Assembly: GCF_000227315.1 (NCBI RefSeq)
Contig: NZ_JH165061.1
Coordinates: 136,374 to 175,129 of the forward strand
Reading direction: 5' to 3'
Source: Peptoniphilus indolicus ATCC 29427
Lineage (GTDB): Bacteria > Bacillota > Clostridia > Tissierellales > Peptoniphilaceae
Length of the DNA stretch: 38,756 bases
Shown here: piece by piece, positions 21,697 to 28,196 of the stretch
Layout of the letters: the number at the start of each line of letters is the position of its first letter
Numbering within the stretch: the stretch's first letter is position 1
Program-made: the position numbers and the translations under genes
The notes under the pieces: generated by a model
The model's database searches: none
Told to the model about the DNA's origin: nothing
The model's input: only the letters and a program-made list of their open reading frames with translations

Positions 21697-23037
21697 TCAG
21701 CCGATTCCTCCAAAGATTGCACCTGCTATTAGGGCAATAAAAGCTAAAGCACAATATAAATACTTTCCTGCAGGATAAAACCATCCTCCAATTTTGTGAG
21801 GTGCTCCTAAATTTACTGCTTCCTCTGCAAATTCTCTGTTTGCTATCCAGAAGAACATTACCCCTGCTAAAAGTGCTCCTAACGGACAAATGTAGATCGA
21901 AACAATATCCATCCATTGAGAAACTATGGCTTGTATAAATATAGCTACAGCACATCCAATAACATGAATTATTACAACTGCAGTTAATCTATTCATATTA
22001 AATTTTTCTTGTAAGACTGCAACCGGTGTTTCATATAGATTGATTATTGAGCTAACGCCTGCAAATAATATACAGAGGTAGAATACAACCCCTATAATTC
22101 TTCCACCAATCATTCCATTTATTACATTTACTAAGTAAATAAACATAAGTCCTGGACCTCCTTCTGATAGCTCAGCGCCACCAACTGCCATAGCTGGAAT
22201 AATAACTATTGCAGCAAGCATTGCGGCTAAAGTATCAAAGAATGCAACTTGTTTTGCAGAATCTATTAAATTTTCACTCTTACTCAAATATGAACCATAT
22301 ATTACCGAGCCACTTCCCGCTACTGATAGAGAAAAGAAAGCTTGTCCAAAAGCAAAAATCCAAAGCTTAGGGTCTTTTAATCCTTCTGAATTTACAGTGA
22401 ATATATAACTATAACCATTAGATGCTCCCGGTTGTAGTGCTATGTATATGGCTAAAAATACAAATAGTATGAACAGCACCGGCATCATTATCTTATTTGC
22501 CTTTTCTATACCGCCTGCAATACCCATTGACATTATTATTAAACTTACAACTATTGCTATAATGATCCATGTATTAGCTCCACCTGCTGAAGCAGTTTTG
22601 CCAAATGTAGAACCTATTACATCCATATCATTACCCATTGCATACAATGAACCGTCTATTGACATCCAAGCATATTTAAAAATCCAACCCATTACGCATG
22701 TGTAACCTATCGCAAGAGCAAGAGAACCCACTACAGGAATTAAACCTAAAGTTTCCCCCACTTTTCTATTACCTTTTTGCTCTGTACACATCCCAAAAGC
22801 TCCCACAGGGCCTGCTCCTGCAGCACGACCAAGTGCAAACTCTTCTATAACCCCAGTACTACCTATTAAAATTACAAATATGAAGTACGGAATTAAAAAT
22901 GTCATTCCTCCCCATGCCGAAACTAAAACAGGAAATCTCCAAATATTTCCCATACCTACAGCTGAACCTATACAGGCTAAAATAAATCCCCACTTACTGC
23001 TAAATCCGTCTCGTTTCCCACCGTTTTTTTCTGACAT
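21697..23037 (-). CDS. Sodium-dependent amino acid transporter (NSS family)
   Basis: This 446-residue membrane protein of the LeuT/TnaT family has about 11-12 helices. The first unwound helix motif GNIWRFPVLVSAWGG, which binds sodium and substrate, is intact, as is AFGQAFFSLSVAGSG in helix 6. It lies 92 bases downstream of the tryptophanase-like gene on the same strand. TnaT of Symbiobacterium, a sodium-tryptophan symporter, has a comparable tie to tryptophanase, so import of the lyase substrate is the likely job. The start at 23037 is chosen because GGAGG lies six bases upstream; an in-frame TTG five codons earlier overlaps that site. A hairpin separates it from the lyase gene. Confidence 0.9.
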   Translation of the reverse strand: MSEKNGGKRDGFSSKWGFILACIGSAVGMGNIWRFPVLVSAWGGMTFLIPYFIFVILIGSTGVIEEFALGRAAGAGPVGAFGMCTEQKGNRKVGETLGLIPVVGSLALAIGYTCVMGWIFKYAWMSIDGSLYAMGNDMDVIGSTFGKTASAGGANTWIIIAIVVSLIIMSMGIAGGIEKANKIMMPVLFILFVFLAIYIALQPGASNGYSYIFTVNSEGLKDPKLWIFAFGQAFFSLSVAGSGSVIYGSYLSKSENLIDSAKQVAFFDTLAAMLAAIVIIPAMAVGGAELSEGGPGLMFIYLVNVINGMIGGRIIGVVFYLCILFAGVSSIINLYETPVAVLQEKFNMNRLTAVVIIHVIGCAVAIFIQAIVSQWMDIVSIYICPLGALLAGVMFFWIANREFAEEAVNLGAPHKIGGWFYPAGKYLYCALAFIALIAGAIFGGIG

Positions 23038-23066
23038 ATTGTGCCTCCACAATTATTTATTTTATT

Positions 23067-23129: not shown

Positions 23130-24767
23130 TTATTTTTCTTCGTTTGGATATGGTTCCAAAAATGCATGGAAGTGACGCATTGGAAGAGTGTGACCTTTTG
23201 TAATTCTCATGTTTGGAATTGATTCACGGTCTTCATAAAGCGCCTTAACAGCAGCTATTACATAATCTAAATGTTCTTTAGAGTAAACACTTCTGTTAAT
23301 TGCAAATCTTACTACGTTTGCAACTTCAGCTTGTTGCTCAGGAGTCTTAAGGTCATATTCCATAGAATAATCTCCAAGTTCAGAAACCCTTATACCGTAA
23401 CGACGGATAAGTTCTAAACTGAAACCTTCTCCGGCAAATGTTTCATGCCCTCTCTTTCCATCAAAGAATTCATCCATATTGATATAAACTCCGTGTCCAC
23501 CTGCAGGAATTACAACACCTTTTACTCCAGCGTTGAATAAACCTTCTGCAAGATAGTTGCATTGATCAATACGTTCTTCAAGATAGTTTACGTTTAGACA
23601 TTCATATAAACCTGCTGCAAGAGCCATGATGTCACGTCCTGACATTCCACCGTAAGAGTCATTACCATAAGAAGAAATTTGTTTAACTTTTAGTAATATA
23701 CCTACATCTGTCTTAACTGTTCCGTCTTCGTTGAAATCTGAGAATTTCTTCCAGAAGTATCCTTTATCACGGAAAGCTAAGATACCACCCATGTTAGAGT
23801 GTCCGTCTTTCTTAAGTGAAGCTGTGAAACCATCACAATAAGAGAACATTTCTTTAGCTATTTCAGCAATTGATTTGTCTGCATAGCCATCTTCATTCAT
23901 CTTGATAAAGTAGCAGTTTTCTGCCCATCTTGCAGCATCAAGCATAAATGGAATTTCATATTTATGAGCAAGTTCAGAAGTTTCTCTGATACTCTTCATA
24001 GAAACAGCTTGTCCACAGATAGTATTGTTTGTAACTGTAGTGTAAATCATTGGAATGTTTTCAATACCAACTGCATCTATAAGTTGTTGAAGTTTTTCAA
24101 CGTCCATATCACCTTTGAAAGGATTCTTTTCATAACGTCCGTTTTCTGGAACTTCATATAATAATTCTTTGTTGTATAGGTTACGAGGAATTGAACCCAT
24201 TTGTTTAATATTTCCTTCAGTAGTATCGAAGTGTCCATTTGAAGGAATTGTGAATACTTTCCCCGGTTCACGTTCTGCTAATATTTTACGAACTATTTCA
24301 AATAAAATAGATTCCGCTGCACGGCCTTGTGGCATAATGAACGCATTTGGACGTTCAAGTTGAGCTGCCCCACCGTTGAAAAGAGTGCCTTCGTATTCAC
24401 ATAAGTACATTTCGTCCATCATTTTTTCTATATCTTGGCAATCTGTTCTAACCAAGTCTATAATTCTCTTTTGATCGTCTCCACGTTCAAAACAATCACG
24501 CATTGCATCTAAAAGTACATAGTAGCCCTTGTTTCTTCCGTAAGCTTCATCGCCTAAGAACATTGCTGACCATTGTTGGTCTGTCATAGCTGTTGTACCT
24601 GAGTCAGACAACATATCTACAGTAAGCATACCTGCCGGGAATGCAAATTCATTGTAATGAGTTTCTTTCAAAGCTCTTTCACGTTGTTCAATAGTAACAT
24701 TTGGGATATTACGTTTTACGTAAGAAAAAGAACGTGGTGTTGGAACGTTTAATTGATATTCTTTCAT
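23130..24767 (-). CDS. tnaA: Tryptophanase / beta-eliminating lyase, long form
   Basis: This 545-residue PLP enzyme of the tryptophanase/tyrosine phenol-lyase family splits an aromatic amino acid into pyruvate, ammonia and indole or phenol. Visible landmarks are LTDSG-like MLSDSGTTAMT (51-62), MPQGRAAE (145-152), SNGHFDTTEGN (176-186), LDAARWAENCYF with PLP-binding Asp277, and the Schiff-base Lys in ASLKKDGHSNMGG (Lys319/320). It is about 75 residues longer than E. coli TnaA, largely from an insertion near residues 94-140. Whether tryptophan, tyrosine or cysteine is preferred cannot be told by eye. AGGAGG lies 11 bases before the ATG, behind a long structured leader. An NSS transporter follows. 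Confidence 0.85.
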   Translation of the reverse strand: MKEYQLNVPTPRSFSYVKRNIPNVTIEQRERALKETHYNEFAFPAGMLTVDMLSDSGTTAMTDQQWSAMFLGDEAYGRNKGYYVLLDAMRDCFERGDDQKRIIDLVRTDCQDIEKMMDEMYLCEYEGTLFNGGAAQLERPNAFIMPQGRAAESILFEIVRKILAEREPGKVFTIPSNGHFDTTEGNIKQMGSIPRNLYNKELLYEVPENGRYEKNPFKGDMDVEKLQQLIDAVGIENIPMIYTTVTNNTICGQAVSMKSIRETSELAHKYEIPFMLDAARWAENCYFIKMNEDGYADKSIAEIAKEMFSYCDGFTASLKKDGHSNMGGILAFRDKGYFWKKFSDFNEDGTVKTDVGILLKVKQISSYGNDSYGGMSGRDIMALAAGLYECLNVNYLEERIDQCNYLAEGLFNAGVKGVVIPAGGHGVYINMDEFFDGKRGHETFAGEGFSLELIRRYGIRVSELGDYSMEYDLKTPEQQAEVANVVRFAINRSVYSKEHLDYVIAAVKALYEDRESIPNMRITKGHTLPMRHFHAFLEPYPNEEK

Positions 24768-24778
24768 TTTTATACTGA

Positions 24779-24982
24779 CCTCCTAAATTTTGACTATCGC
24801 CTTCTCAGAGGATACCCCGGTTTTCGAAATTATCGATTAGCGGACAGTATACTACTCTAACTATTTTTGAATATCTAAAGCAGTTCCTTAGATATTACAA
24901 ACAATTGCTTTGATTTTTTATTAGATCTATGTATTCAAGTTTTTAGAATCGTTTGCATAACACGGAACTTCTTTATAGGTCA
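24779..24982 (-). promoter_or_regulatory. Structured 5' leader of the tryptophanase-like gene (candidate riboregulator)
   Basis: The leader between the -10 and the ribosome site has a nested fold. Stem I pairs GCAAACGAUU (24956-24947) with AAUUGUUUGU (24906-24897). Stem II starts on the next base: AAUAUCUAA (24896-24888) with UUAGAUAUU (24878-24870). Its 9-nt loop holds GGAACU (24887-24882), fully complementary to AGUUCC (24969-24964) just upstream of stem I, giving a pseudoknot. Stem III pairs ACUGUCCGCU (24848-24839) with GGCGAUAGU (24801-24793) with one bulge, and encloses a GC-rich GGGGUAUCC segment unlike the AT-rich surroundings. There is no terminator, so control would act on translation or RNA stability. 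I could not match it to T-box, TPP, glycine, lysine or SAM leaders. Confidence 0.55.
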
Positions 24983-25012
24983 ATTTTATCATCTACTGAG
25001 ATACTTTGTCAA
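24983..25012 (-). promoter_or_regulatory. Promoter of the tryptophanase-transporter operon
   Basis: Consensus TTGACA and TAAAAT are 18 bases apart on the minus strand. The predicted start near 24976 leaves a leader of about 210 nt before the lyase ATG. Confidence 0.8.
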
Positions 25013-25074
25013 TAAGTTGACGCCTTATACTAACCTTTATTTTTAACTATAACTTATTCTAAATAATCTATGTT

Positions 25075-25167
25075 TTACTTCTTAATTATTTTACTTATAA
25101 CATATACAACCAAGCCCGCCATAAGTATCATAAAAATCGTTGGCAATATGTTTGCAATTGTATTCAT
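25075..25167 (-). CDS. Unannotated 30-residue single-helix membrane protein
   Basis: This small ORF begins MNTIANILPTIFMIL, continues as one hydrophobic helix (about residues 5-26) and ends in a basic KIIKK tail. AGGAGGA stands eight to nine bases before the ATG. A promoter with TTGAAG and TATAAT-like TAATAT at 17-bp spacing lies upstream (25219-25247), so expression is well supported. It is on the same strand and directly upstream of the tryptophanase-NSS operon. Very small membrane subunits accompany some NSS transporters (MetS with MetP), so it may be an accessory subunit, although I do not see the WGG usual in MetS. A type I toxin-like peptide is the alternative. Confidence 0.6.
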   Translation of the reverse strand: MNTIANILPTIFMILMAGLVVYVISKIIKK

Positions 25168-25218
25168 AATAAATATCCTCCTATCGATTTATCTAAAAAT
25201 ATTACTTAATCATAAATA

Positions 25219-25247
25219 ATATTATCATTTTAAAATTATTTCTTCAA
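25219..25247 (-). promoter_or_regulatory. Promoter of the 30-residue membrane protein gene
   Basis: TTGAAG and TAATAT are separated by exactly 17 bases on the minus strand, about 50 bases before the small ORF start. Confidence 0.65.
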
Positions 25248-25270
25248 TTTGCTGTAAATTATTATTTCTT

Positions 25271-25300
25271 TTGCCATGCTGTACATTTAATGTGTATAAT
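25271..25300 (+). promoter_or_regulatory. Promoter of the M16C peptidase gene
   Basis: TTGCCA and a perfect TATAAT are 18 bases apart on the plus strand. TATAAT ends 22 bases before the ATG at 25323, which rules out the longer in-frame start at 25290. Confidence 0.75.
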
Positions 25301-25322
25301 ATCTTTAATAAAGGAGGCTACA

Positions 25323-28196
25323 ATGTATAAACTTTTAAAAGAAGAAATGATTGATGAAGTGTCTTCTAAGGCACTATATTTTATACACGAAAAAACTAAT
25401 GCACAAGTCCTTGTGCTTTCAAATGATGATGCAAATAAAGCCTTTGGAATTGGTTTTAAGACAATCCCTGAAGATTCAACAGGAGTTGCCCATATAGTTG
25501 AACACTCTGTACTATCCGGCTCAAGAAAATATAGAACAAAAGAACCTTTTATGGACCTTATAAAATCCAGCCAACAAACTTTTTTGAATGCTATGACATT
25601 TCCTGATAAGACAATCTACCCTGTCAGTTCAAGAAATGAAAAAGACTTTTATAACCTGATGGATGTGTACTTAGATTCCGTATTTTATCCGAGAATGTAT
25701 GAAGTCAAAGAAATCTTTGAACAAGAAGGTTGGCACTATGAAATGGAAAAAGATTCTCCATTATCTATAAACGGTGTCGTATACAATGAAATGAAAGGTG
25801 TCTACTCAGACCCTCAATCAATAGTTTCTGATACTTTGACTTTTAACCTACATCCCAACTCAACTTATGGTGTTGATTCAGGTGGAGACCCTAAAGAAAT
25901 TCCAAATTTAACTTACGAAAACTTTTTGAATTTCCACAAAAAATTTTACCATCCTTCTAATTCTTATATCTATCTCTATGGAAATATGAATTATGAAGAA
26001 GTTTTAAAATTTATAGAAGATAACTATTTAAATTCATTTGATTTTGAAGAAATAGACTCTGAAATAAAATTAAACTCTCCAATTACAGAAACTACCTTTG
26101 TAAAAGAGACTTATGCTGCAACTCCAGCAGAGGTTGAAAAGAAAAATGATTATTTAGGATTTGGGTGGTGTATTGGAAAGAGTTTAAACCCTGAAGATTT
26201 ATTTATGAGAAATTTCCTATCTGAACTCTTAGTAAATTCAGATTCATCTCCTATAAAACAAGATGTTTTAAGCTCAGGTTTTGCAGAAGATGTTTGGGCT
26301 GAAAATTCAACTTCACTAACTCTTGACTTATCAATTGTCGCTAAAAACACCGGTGGGAAAACTGCCGAAGAATTTCGCGACTTCATATATGCCTCTCTCG
26401 AAAAAATAGTTTCAAATGGCATAGATAAGGATTTGCTCCTTGCTACATTTAATAAATTTGAGTTTGCATATCGTGAAGGCGGAGGAGTCCAAAAGGCTAT
26501 AATATATTACATTAGAGCTCTTAACACTTGGTTATATGGCGAAAACCCTATAGACGGACTAAAATCTCTATCTGTAATTGAAAACTTGAGAAATAAAATA
26601 GATACTGATTTCTTTGAACAATACATTCAAAAGCATTTGATTGATAACAAATATTCAGTTGGAGTTCAAATTTCAGCAGACGCTGATAAAAATGAAATTG
26701 AACTAAATGAATTAAAAGAAAAACTTGAGAATATAAAGGACTCTCTTTCTGATGAAGAAGTAGATAACATTATATTAAATCATAAAAATTTAGTCGAATA
26801 TCAATTAAGAGAAGACAGTGATGAGGATAAAAACACCATACCTTCACTTGAACTTTCTGATATCAAAGAGGGTATCGAACACATTGAAAGTGAGATATTT
26901 AAAGAAAAATATGGAACGCTTTTATTCAATCCTCAACCTACAAATGGTATCTCTTACGTTACAATTTCGTTCCCTGCTGAATATATAGCTATCGAAGATT
27001 TGCCAACTATGAATCTATTAAGCGAATTATTCGGCAAAGTCTCCACTCAAAACTATCACTATTCTAATTTAGACACAGAAATATATAAGACAATGGGTGG
27101 TTTTGGAACAGGACTTGCAACTTATAGAGACTACACTAAAGAAGATGAATTCAAATCTCGATTTGAAGCTTCTATTAAGACTTTAGACTTGAACTTTGAA
27201 AAGTCTATTGAACTTTCAAAAGAAATTTTATTAAATTCTAAATTTGATGATAAGAAGAGAATTAAAGAGCTTATCTTACTTCAAAAATCATATATCGAGG
27301 CAATAATACTTCAAAGCGGACATTCAATAGCTGCTGAAGTTGTTAAGAGTTATTTCTCAAAGCTATCTGCTTATAATCAAATAGCCGGTGGATTTAACTA
27401 CTACTTCTACCTTTCTGATTTGATTGAAAACTTTGAAACTATGTGGGAAGGTTTAAGCGCTAAACTTAAAGAACTATCAGCCAAGTTGATAAACGGTGTG
27501 GATGTTGTTGTGAATTTAACTGCCGACAGTTCTGAAAAGAAAGATTTTCTATCCGAGTTTTTAGAATCTCTTCCTACTGAAAAATATGAATCTGTTGAAT
27601 TTGAATTTACTCCTAATCCAAAAAATCAAGGATTTACAACTTCTGCCAATGTAAACTATGTATCTAAAGGATATAATCTAAAAGAATTCGGAATAAACTA
27701 CTCAGGTATTATGCCTGTCCTTGGAAATATATTGTCCGCTGATTATCTTCATAATCAAATACGTGCTAAAGGTGGCGCTTATGGAGCTGGAGTTAAGTTC
27801 TCTATGTCAGATGACGTAGTAACTTATTCTTATAGAGACCCTAACCTTGAAAAGACAGCTGAAGTTTATGACAATATGGCTGAATATGTGGACTCACTTG
27901 ACTTAACTGAAGATGAACTCAAAAATTATATAATCGGTACTATGAATGCTTTCGACCCACTTCTTGGCGCAGCTGAAAAGGGAAGTGCAAACTTCAGCCG
28001 ATTTATGACAAACTTAACAGAAGAAAAAGTTGCTGAATTTAAAGAACAAGCGCTAAACACCAAGCTTTCAGACCTAAAAGCTCTACGTGGAGCATTAAAA
28101 GAAGCTATGAATAAAAATTATATTACTGCAATAGGCTCAAAAGAAATGATAGAGTCAAGCAAGTTGTTTAAAGAAGTAATTGAACTAAAAAGATAA
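25323..28196 (+). CDS. M16C family zinc metallopeptidase (presequence protease / insulinase-like)
   Basis: This 957-residue protein carries the inverted zinc motif HIVEH at residues 57-61 and the downstream Glu-bearing segment VVYNEMKGVYSDP near 155-168, followed by the long hinge and a second inactive M16 half. It is the single-chain M16C type (PreP/falcilysin-like), which encloses and degrades peptides of up to about 70 residues. No signal peptide is present, so it is probably cytoplasmic and recycles peptides, suiting an amino-acid fermenter. AAAGGAGG five bases before the ATG fixes the start. It is transcribed away from the small membrane protein gene and ends at a long terminator. Confidence 0.93.
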   Translation: MYKLLKEEMIDEVSSKALYFIHEKTNAQVLVLSNDDANKAFGIGFKTIPEDSTGVAHIVEHSVLSGSRKYRTKEPFMDLIKSSQQTFLNAMTFPDKTIYPVSSRNEKDFYNLMDVYLDSVFYPRMYEVKEIFEQEGWHYEMEKDSPLSINGVVYNEMKGVYSDPQSIVSDTLTFNLHPNSTYGVDSGGDPKEIPNLTYENFLNFHKKFYHPSNSYIYLYGNMNYEEVLKFIEDNYLNSFDFEEIDSEIKLNSPITETTFVKETYAATPAEVEKKNDYLGFGWCIGKSLNPEDLFMRNFLSELLVNSDSSPIKQDVLSSGFAEDVWAENSTSLTLDLSIVAKNTGGKTAEEFRDFIYASLEKIVSNGIDKDLLLATFNKFEFAYREGGGVQKAIIYYIRALNTWLYGENPIDGLKSLSVIENLRNKIDTDFFEQYIQKHLIDNKYSVGVQISADADKNEIELNELKEKLENIKDSLSDEEVDNIILNHKNLVEYQLREDSDEDKNTIPSLELSDIKEGIEHIESEIFKEKYGTLLFNPQPTNGISYVTISFPAEYIAIEDLPTMNLLSELFGKVSTQNYHYSNLDTEIYKTMGGFGTGLATYRDYTKEDEFKSRFEASIKTLDLNFEKSIELSKEILLNSKFDDKKRIKELILLQKSYIEAIILQSGHSIAAEVVKSYFSKLSAYNQIAGGFNYYFYLSDLIENFETMWEGLSAKLKELSAKLINGVDVVVNLTADSSEKKDFLSEFLESLPTEKYESVEFEFTPNPKNQGFTTSANVNYVSKGYNLKEFGINYSGIMPVLGNILSADYLHNQIRAKGGAYGAGVKFSMSDDVVTYSYRDPNLEKTAEVYDNMAEYVDSLDLTEDELKNYIIGTMNAFDPLLGAAEKGSANFSRFMTNLTEEKVAEFKEQALNTKLSDLKALRGALKEAMNKNYITAIGSKEMIESSKLFKEVIELKR

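Follow-up and report, generated by a model that had tools for sequence, protein, structure and literature searches.

A conserved RNA motif of about 52 nucleotides was found upstream of tryptophanase in the window (the whole 38,756-nucleotide stretch of DNA analyzed here), at positions 24805 to 24856 of the minus strand, on which all features of the window given below also lie. That a conserved cis-regulatory RNA stands upstream of tryptophanase is close to certain, and the element is predicted with good confidence to be a ligand-binding riboswitch. The reading favored here, on comparative sequence evidence, is that it is probably an aptamer that would sense L-tryptophan and turn on the translation of tryptophanase, and that it represents a riboswitch class not described before.

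The operon begins with a long-form tryptophanase of 545 amino acids (positions 23130 to 24767; PRK13238 model, 622.7 bits), of which residues 2 to 545 match PDB entry 8sl7, "Tryptophanase." The accompanying transporter belongs to the sodium:neurotransmitter-symporter family (positions 21697 to 23052; Pfam PF00209, E = 7.6e-42) and is a probable tryptophan uptake protein. The Shine-Dalgarno sequence of the tryptophanase gene was read from the sequence as AGGAGG (positions 24779 to 24784). A promoter-like site of the sigma-70 type (positions 24983 to 25012) was predicted by consensus scan with 11 of 12 matches, with TTGACA at 25012, a spacer of 18 nucleotides, and TAAAAT, preceded by TG and ending at 24983. 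This site would place the transcript start near 24982, the first leader base in the original prediction, and the leader of about 210 nucleotides claimed there for the tryptophanase-transporter pair was borne out. Three absences that had been noted for the leader also held: nothing resembling an intrinsic terminator was found in positions 24700 to 25330, none of the five short open reading frames (ORFs) starting between 24982 and 24768 contained a Trp codon, and the T-box model (RF00230) was unmatched in the window and in 14 relatives. Between an M16 peptidase gene and the tnaA promoter lies a 30-codon ORF (positions 25075 to 25167, minus strand), which has a strong ribosome site (AGGAGG) and reads as a small membrane protein.

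The motif is built as a helix (P1), a core, a hairpin (P2), the second half of the core, and the returning P1 strand. Model R2 matched the window at positions 24805 to 24856 (54.3 bits, E = 1.2e-14) and at no other place in it, the window copy (L001) being one of the 78 sequences on which R2 was trained. Across these 78 distinct sequences, the layout of the model is P1 (NNUAC/GUANN), a UG bulge, CCG/CGG pairs, an internal loop, and P2, and the isolated motif segment of the window folds unaided into this consensus structure. The pair table, pair counts, and segment fold place the P1 5' arm, AUAC, at positions 24847 to 24850, pairing with 24812 to 24815 and with more pairs below after a mismatch; the 3' arm, GUAU (positions 24812 to 24815), is followed by CCUC, a potential anti-Shine-Dalgarno sequence. 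The conserved core, UACUGNCCGCYAG ... UGACCGGGGU, was defined by invariant or near-invariant columns in the 78 sequences. Its 5' half in the window is CUGUCCGCUAA (positions 24837 to 24847; consensus CUGNCCGCYAG), and its 3' half is AAAACCGGGGU (positions 24814 to 24824; consensus AUGACCGGGGU), with the variable P2 hairpin, marked by covarying pairs, at positions 24824 to 24836. Loci of the window's family share a block that reads UACUGNCCGCYAGU, a hairpin of variable length, and then AUGACCGGGGU. The invariance of the core is partly circular, since the sequences for R2 were gathered with patterns demanding most core bases; the covarying columns were left free. Core changes did appear in later model matches, as UACCGUCCGC in L171 and UACCGACCGC in L172, both of which the pattern would miss, and L165 was changed as well.

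An Infernal-type covariance check of the window against 4227 Rfam 15 families returned nothing at or above the gathering score, in agreement with the earlier statement that the leader fitted none of the riboswitch consensus patterns considered there. Three sub-threshold matches around the leader (E up to 10) were all to eukaryotic families and were taken as chance. No Rfam 15 family matched the motif in the 14 motif-bearing relatives. The sole Rfam match in these loci was a Clostridiales-1 RNA (RF01699, 128.7 bits, L067:7416-7572), which lies about 3 kb away from the motif in a Lachnospiraceae genome.

The original prediction had drawn the sensor as two stacked stems (I and II) with a loop pseudoknot between GGAACU and AGUUCC, an architecture to which we now give very little credence. 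Both hexamers exist in the window leader (GGAACU at 24887 to 24882 and AGUUCC at 24969 to 24964), and the whole leader folds moderately better than its shuffles (z = -2.0; 6/200). However, L002, the closest relative, with a tryptophanase 97% identical to that of the window, has neither hexamer in its leader; in a pairwise alignment the two sequences are near-identical from about 24882 to the start codon, and conservation is poor in the left part of the leader. Judged by eye and unaligned, the left half also lacks an evident counterpart in further relatives. A hairpin-loop 6-mer with an exact complement outside the hairpin occurred in 108 of 300 shuffled leaders, so that, with the hexamers gone in the closest relative and such coincidences common, stems I and II are unsupported and the pseudoknot is abandoned. 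Stem III, drawn around a GC-rich block near the ribosome site, was partly right: the block is real and important, and the stem is only a partial view of the motif. What survives of the proposed new structured RNA leader is the claim of novelty and structure, carried by the lack of an Rfam match, by covariation, and by occurrence ahead of two diverged tryptophanase groups, without stems I and II and the pseudoknot.

Of the 249 genomes of the order that were searched, 36 carry a long-form tryptophanase, and the motif was present on the fetched stretch at 26 of these 36 loci and missing from the other 10. Two loci, L004 and L005, have tnaA with the transporter and no motif; the coding sequence directly upstream in both reads like that of a PLP synthase subunit (PdxS). 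Model R1, built from an initial alignment of 26 sequences, detected the motif in 28 of the order's 249 genomes, two of which belong to another family and carry it ahead of a short-form tryptophanase. A degenerate pattern scan of one genome per species (84,980 species) yielded 87 stretches, and the figures given here come from the 80 matches listed. Among these 80, 72 were directly upstream of tryptophanase (66 long-form and 6 short-form), 1 preceded a transporter, 2 were cut off, and 5 had neither gene and were chance-like. The five (L069, L122, L133, L139, and L146) had no tryptophanase within 900 nucleotides downstream and were taken as chance; about 7 chance matches would be expected for the genome pattern by our own estimate, which assumes equal base use. 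The locus with the transporter (L083, Pseudoflavonifractor sp. Marseille-P3106) retains both motif and ribosome site but lacks tryptophanase, and the transporter, 53% identical to that of the window, lies about 230 nucleotides after the motif. This arrangement is possibly the product of a deletion or of an assembly join.

Hosts among the 72 listed included Peptoniphilus, Anaerococcus, Murdochiella, Levyella, Agathobaculum, Anaerotruncus, Flavonifractor, and Butyricicoccus, as well as Acidaminococcus, [Clostridium] aminophilum, [Clostridium] citroniae, and Enterococcus alishanensis; the hosts with a recognized name are Bacillota. At E values up to 0.01, R2 matched 7/391, 3/33, 1/188, 3/398, and 2/73 genomes in class, order, and phylum samples, some genomes recurring among them. 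Outside the window's family, 8 genomes had model matches (the two R1 genomes included), and in 6 of the 8 the motif precedes tryptophanase, some of these six showing the core changes described above. Weak model matches in L169 and L170 apparently fall inside coding sequence, have no tryptophanase on the fetched stretch, and were rejected as chance, as were five IMG/VR matches with 63 to 70% G+C, for which the retrieved stretch contained neither tryptophanase nor transporter. Searching plasmids with the leader gave no match. The motif is sparse across Bacillota and, where apparently real, is almost confined to tryptophanase, which gives the downstream genes a single metabolic theme.

The long-form and short-form tryptophanases that carry the motif are about 35% identical, and the motif therefore appears to follow the reaction rather than a single gene lineage. 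In the 71 downstream proteins scanned, FDTT was present in 66 (the remaining five are locus ends of 44 to 107 residues), RHF was present in 57, and the RFF form was present in none; the places of FDTT and RHF are those that we take to separate tryptophanase from tyrosine phenol-lyase. The motif might instead be the RNA site of a trans-acting, tryptophan-sensing protein, of a TRAP-like or antiterminator-like kind, since protein sites too can be short and contain an internal loop that is conserved. A single partner protein would, however, have to travel along with the motif through two diverged enzyme groups and scattered families of Bacillota, and its core appears larger than a loop for protein binding would call for. 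A protein site is accordingly judged improbable, and the riboswitch reading is retained.

Covariation was scored on alignment A2, which kept 78 of 86 instances; the 8 left out have long inserts (one of them, in L072, probably reflects a false upstream start), and L018 stands outside the 86 since its 3' half misses the pattern. In P1 and P2, 88.7% of 1092 cells paired in the 78 distinct sequences, versus 32 to 48% when the partner was slid by 1 to 3 columns. The covariation score was 0.251, against 0.150 (standard deviation [SD], 0.008) in shuffles, and was reached by 0 of 500; cells changed on both sides numbered 91, against 41.0 (SD, 6.0) in shuffles. Shuffles and permutations ignore relatedness. 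Pairs with two-sided change numbered 6, with no excess over shuffles (5.8), and the CCG/CGG pairs hardly vary, which makes them uninformative on covariation. On a tree of 76 enzymes (8 loci left out beforehand, and 22 of 98 rows then dropped as duplicates), the Watson-Crick type switched at least 7 times at one P1 position and at least 4 and at least 8 times at two P2 positions. The check that had been proposed for the leader, covariation across relatives, thus found covarying helices in P1 and P2 as redrawn here.

Unpaired covariation was also seen at one core position (A2 columns 19 and 59), where the 86 sequences had A opposite G in 61 cases, C opposite A in 15, and A opposite A in 9, a non-Watson-Crick pattern pointing to a putative tertiary contact in the likely binding site. 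Single copies of the motif were not unusually stable against shuffles, with z values of -1.1 and -1.7 for window segments and -1.5, 1.3, and 0.1 for three relatives. The features expected of a riboswitch, namely, a conserved structured 5'-untranslated region (5'-UTR) element, covarying helices, and conserved loop bases, were found, with the conservation of the core partly built in by the collection. A location between promoter and ribosome site would also suit an operator acting at the DNA level, or else a structure that serves translation initiation and has no sensor. In the instances collected, 7 to about 64 nucleotides intervene between the core halves, with a hairpin of covarying bases, which suits RNA rather than a DNA operator, and the strongly kept unpaired core bases exceed what structure alone would need, subject to the same caveat on collection. 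Both of these simpler explanations are considered highly unlikely, and an RNA sensor remains the preferred reading.

Two copies of the motif stand in tandem upstream of tnaA at 14 loci (L006 to L017, L019, and L020), out of 26 in the window's family that bear the motif and 36 long-form tnaA loci in the initial set; their starts lie 46 to 100 nucleotides apart. At 12 of these 14 loci, the core of the upstream copy deviates slightly (UCAUC...AUAACC or AUAACG), which hints that tandem arrangements may serve cooperative or two-input sensing.

Beside the Shine-Dalgarno sequence, CAGUAUA (positions 24771 to 24777) is complementary to UAUACUG (positions 24845 to 24851), which spans the P1 5' arm and part of the core, and the two segments would form the proposed OFF helix. 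In the minimum-energy fold of positions 24768 to 24862, UAUACUG (24851 to 24845) pairs with CAGUAUA (24777 to 24771), the aptamer is undone, and the ribosome site is mostly buried. Under strict Watson-Crick pairing with 27 clusters, helices with the arm's own partner were longer than with swapped partners both for the helix between the 5' arm and the ribosome region (3.52 versus 3.01, P = 6e-5, a value to be discounted because the tests were run in several forms, with two regions, G-U pairs allowed or not, and three clustering levels) and for P1 itself (4.11 versus 3.57, P = 0.001). Allowing G-U pairs weakened the ribosome-site signal to P = 0.08 and that of P1 to P = 0.05; with 7 clusters only, the P1 signal was lost (P = 0.79) and the ribosome site gave P = 0.03. 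Earlier versions of the ribosome-site pairing test gave P values of 0.036 to 0.11. The P1 3' arm had no own-versus-swapped signal against the ribosome site (P = 0.27), and its complementarity to that site exceeded that of its shuffles (-7.6 versus -5.3 kcal/mol).

Openness of the ribosome site was computed for 69 leaders, which are the 86 instances minus 11 upstream tandem copies, five without a start codon, and one duplicate L072 row. Openness was 0.14 in free folds and 0.38 with the aptamer forced (31% in shuffled leaders), and forcing the aptamer opened the site further in 60 of the 69. Among 18 nonredundant leaders, neither burial relative to shuffles (P = 0.97) nor opening by the aptamer (P = 0.17) was significant. 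Two sets of forced pairs, differing slightly, were used in turn. With the set behind the figures above, forcing the aptamer closed the site of the window leader from 0.35 to 0.14, yet the other set opened it (0.74), so the window leader bears no claim here. Folds with P1 barred were discarded as a measurement, since the constraint removed competing pairs too.

The complementarity of the P1 5' arm to the ribosome site suggests an ON switch, with support of mixed strength, and a ligand-ON translational switch at the tryptophanase ribosome site is the likely mode of action by these models. With ligand absent, the P1 5' arm and part of the core would pair with the Shine-Dalgarno region and hide the ribosome site; in some lineages, the P1 3' arm may take this role instead. 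Tryptophan would bind the conserved internal loop and stabilize P1, core, and P2 together, which would withdraw the 5' arm and free the ribosome site.

On the reasoning that a catabolic enzyme is induced by its substrate, L-tryptophan is the leading candidate for the ligand, and we infer, with somewhat better than balanced confidence, that it is the one sensed. Tryptophan had been among the ligands suggested originally, and that proposal as a whole, a new structured RNA leader with tryptophan as a possible ligand, is supported by the covariation, the lack of an Rfam match, and the association with two diverged tryptophanase groups across Bacillota. A riboswitch for another ligand, such as the product indole, the cofactor PLP, or a general aromatic signal, would fit the anatomy and covariation equally, and gene association alone cannot separate a substrate from a product or cofactor. 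Among the 80 matches listed (the 2 cut off and the 5 chance-like ones aside), though, only tryptophanase and one transporter gene were directly downstream, and an ON switch of a catabolic enzyme would fit its substrate better than its product. Another ligand is thus held to be rather unlikely, if less so than a protein site, and tryptophan is kept as the probable ligand.

Bacterial tryptophanase makes indole, and its known control is by a nascent peptide, in enterobacteria. Indole is described in PMC12383901 as a gut signal that the liver converts to the uremic toxin indoxyl sulfate. If the reading proposed here is true, an RNA sensor would explain how indole is gated in Peptoniphilus, Anaerococcus, Agathobaculum, Anaerotruncus, Flavonifractor, Acidaminococcus, and others, and the motif would supply a natural tryptophan aptamer.

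To our knowledge, no natural class of tryptophan riboswitch has been recognized, and the literature searched, which included few subscription papers, contained neither a natural tryptophan riboswitch nor a tryptophanase-associated RNA motif. The full proposition, that this is the first natural tryptophan riboswitch, an aptamer of about 50 nucleotides in Firmicutes that would act as an ON switch for tryptophanase and indole, in tandem in 14 of 26 family loci and with a core that may have converged on a laboratory-selected site, is one that we consider evenly poised. That site, an L-tryptophan RNA site selected by Majerfeld and Yarus in 2005, reportedly has an internal loop containing CYA. The motif core shares CYA (GCYAG opposite UGACC), a likeness of 3 nucleotides on which no weight is placed, and differs from the selected site at 12 of the 14 tandem loci, where the upstream copy carries UCA.

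By theme, the nearest published candidate is the trpB motif (SRC-39-1), which PMC11109978 presents as a Firmicutes riboswitch candidate with a possible tryptophan link, formed of two hairpins, the second an intrinsic terminator, and located mostly before an ABC transporter. Compared with that description rather than by sequence, the window element differs in having no terminator-like site in positions 24700 to 25330 and a tryptophanase downstream, and the features that characterize the trpB motif there were not found in it. In Escherichia coli, tnaA is under the control of the tnaC leader peptide and is induced by tryptophan. The window element resembles this system in that tryptophanase would be controlled through its leader with probable induction by tryptophan and differs from it in that the five short ORFs of the leader lack a Trp codon and what is conserved is a structured RNA next to the ribosome site. 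The T-box (RF00230) and TRAP are other routes by which leader RNAs of Firmicutes sense tryptophan status; unlike these, the window element comes with no T-box match in the window or 14 relatives, and its leader lacks anything resembling a terminator. Bacterial riboswitch classes in general, orphan and validated (those for guanidine, glycine, and PRPP, for example), are marked by a short 5'-UTR element, an internal loop of conserved bases flanked by variable helices, one gene family downstream, tandem copies in some species, and the ribosome site in a competing helix. Unlike known classes, the window element is matched by no Rfam 15 model; it is like them in sharing all of these traits, the competing ribosome-site helix being a predicted one.
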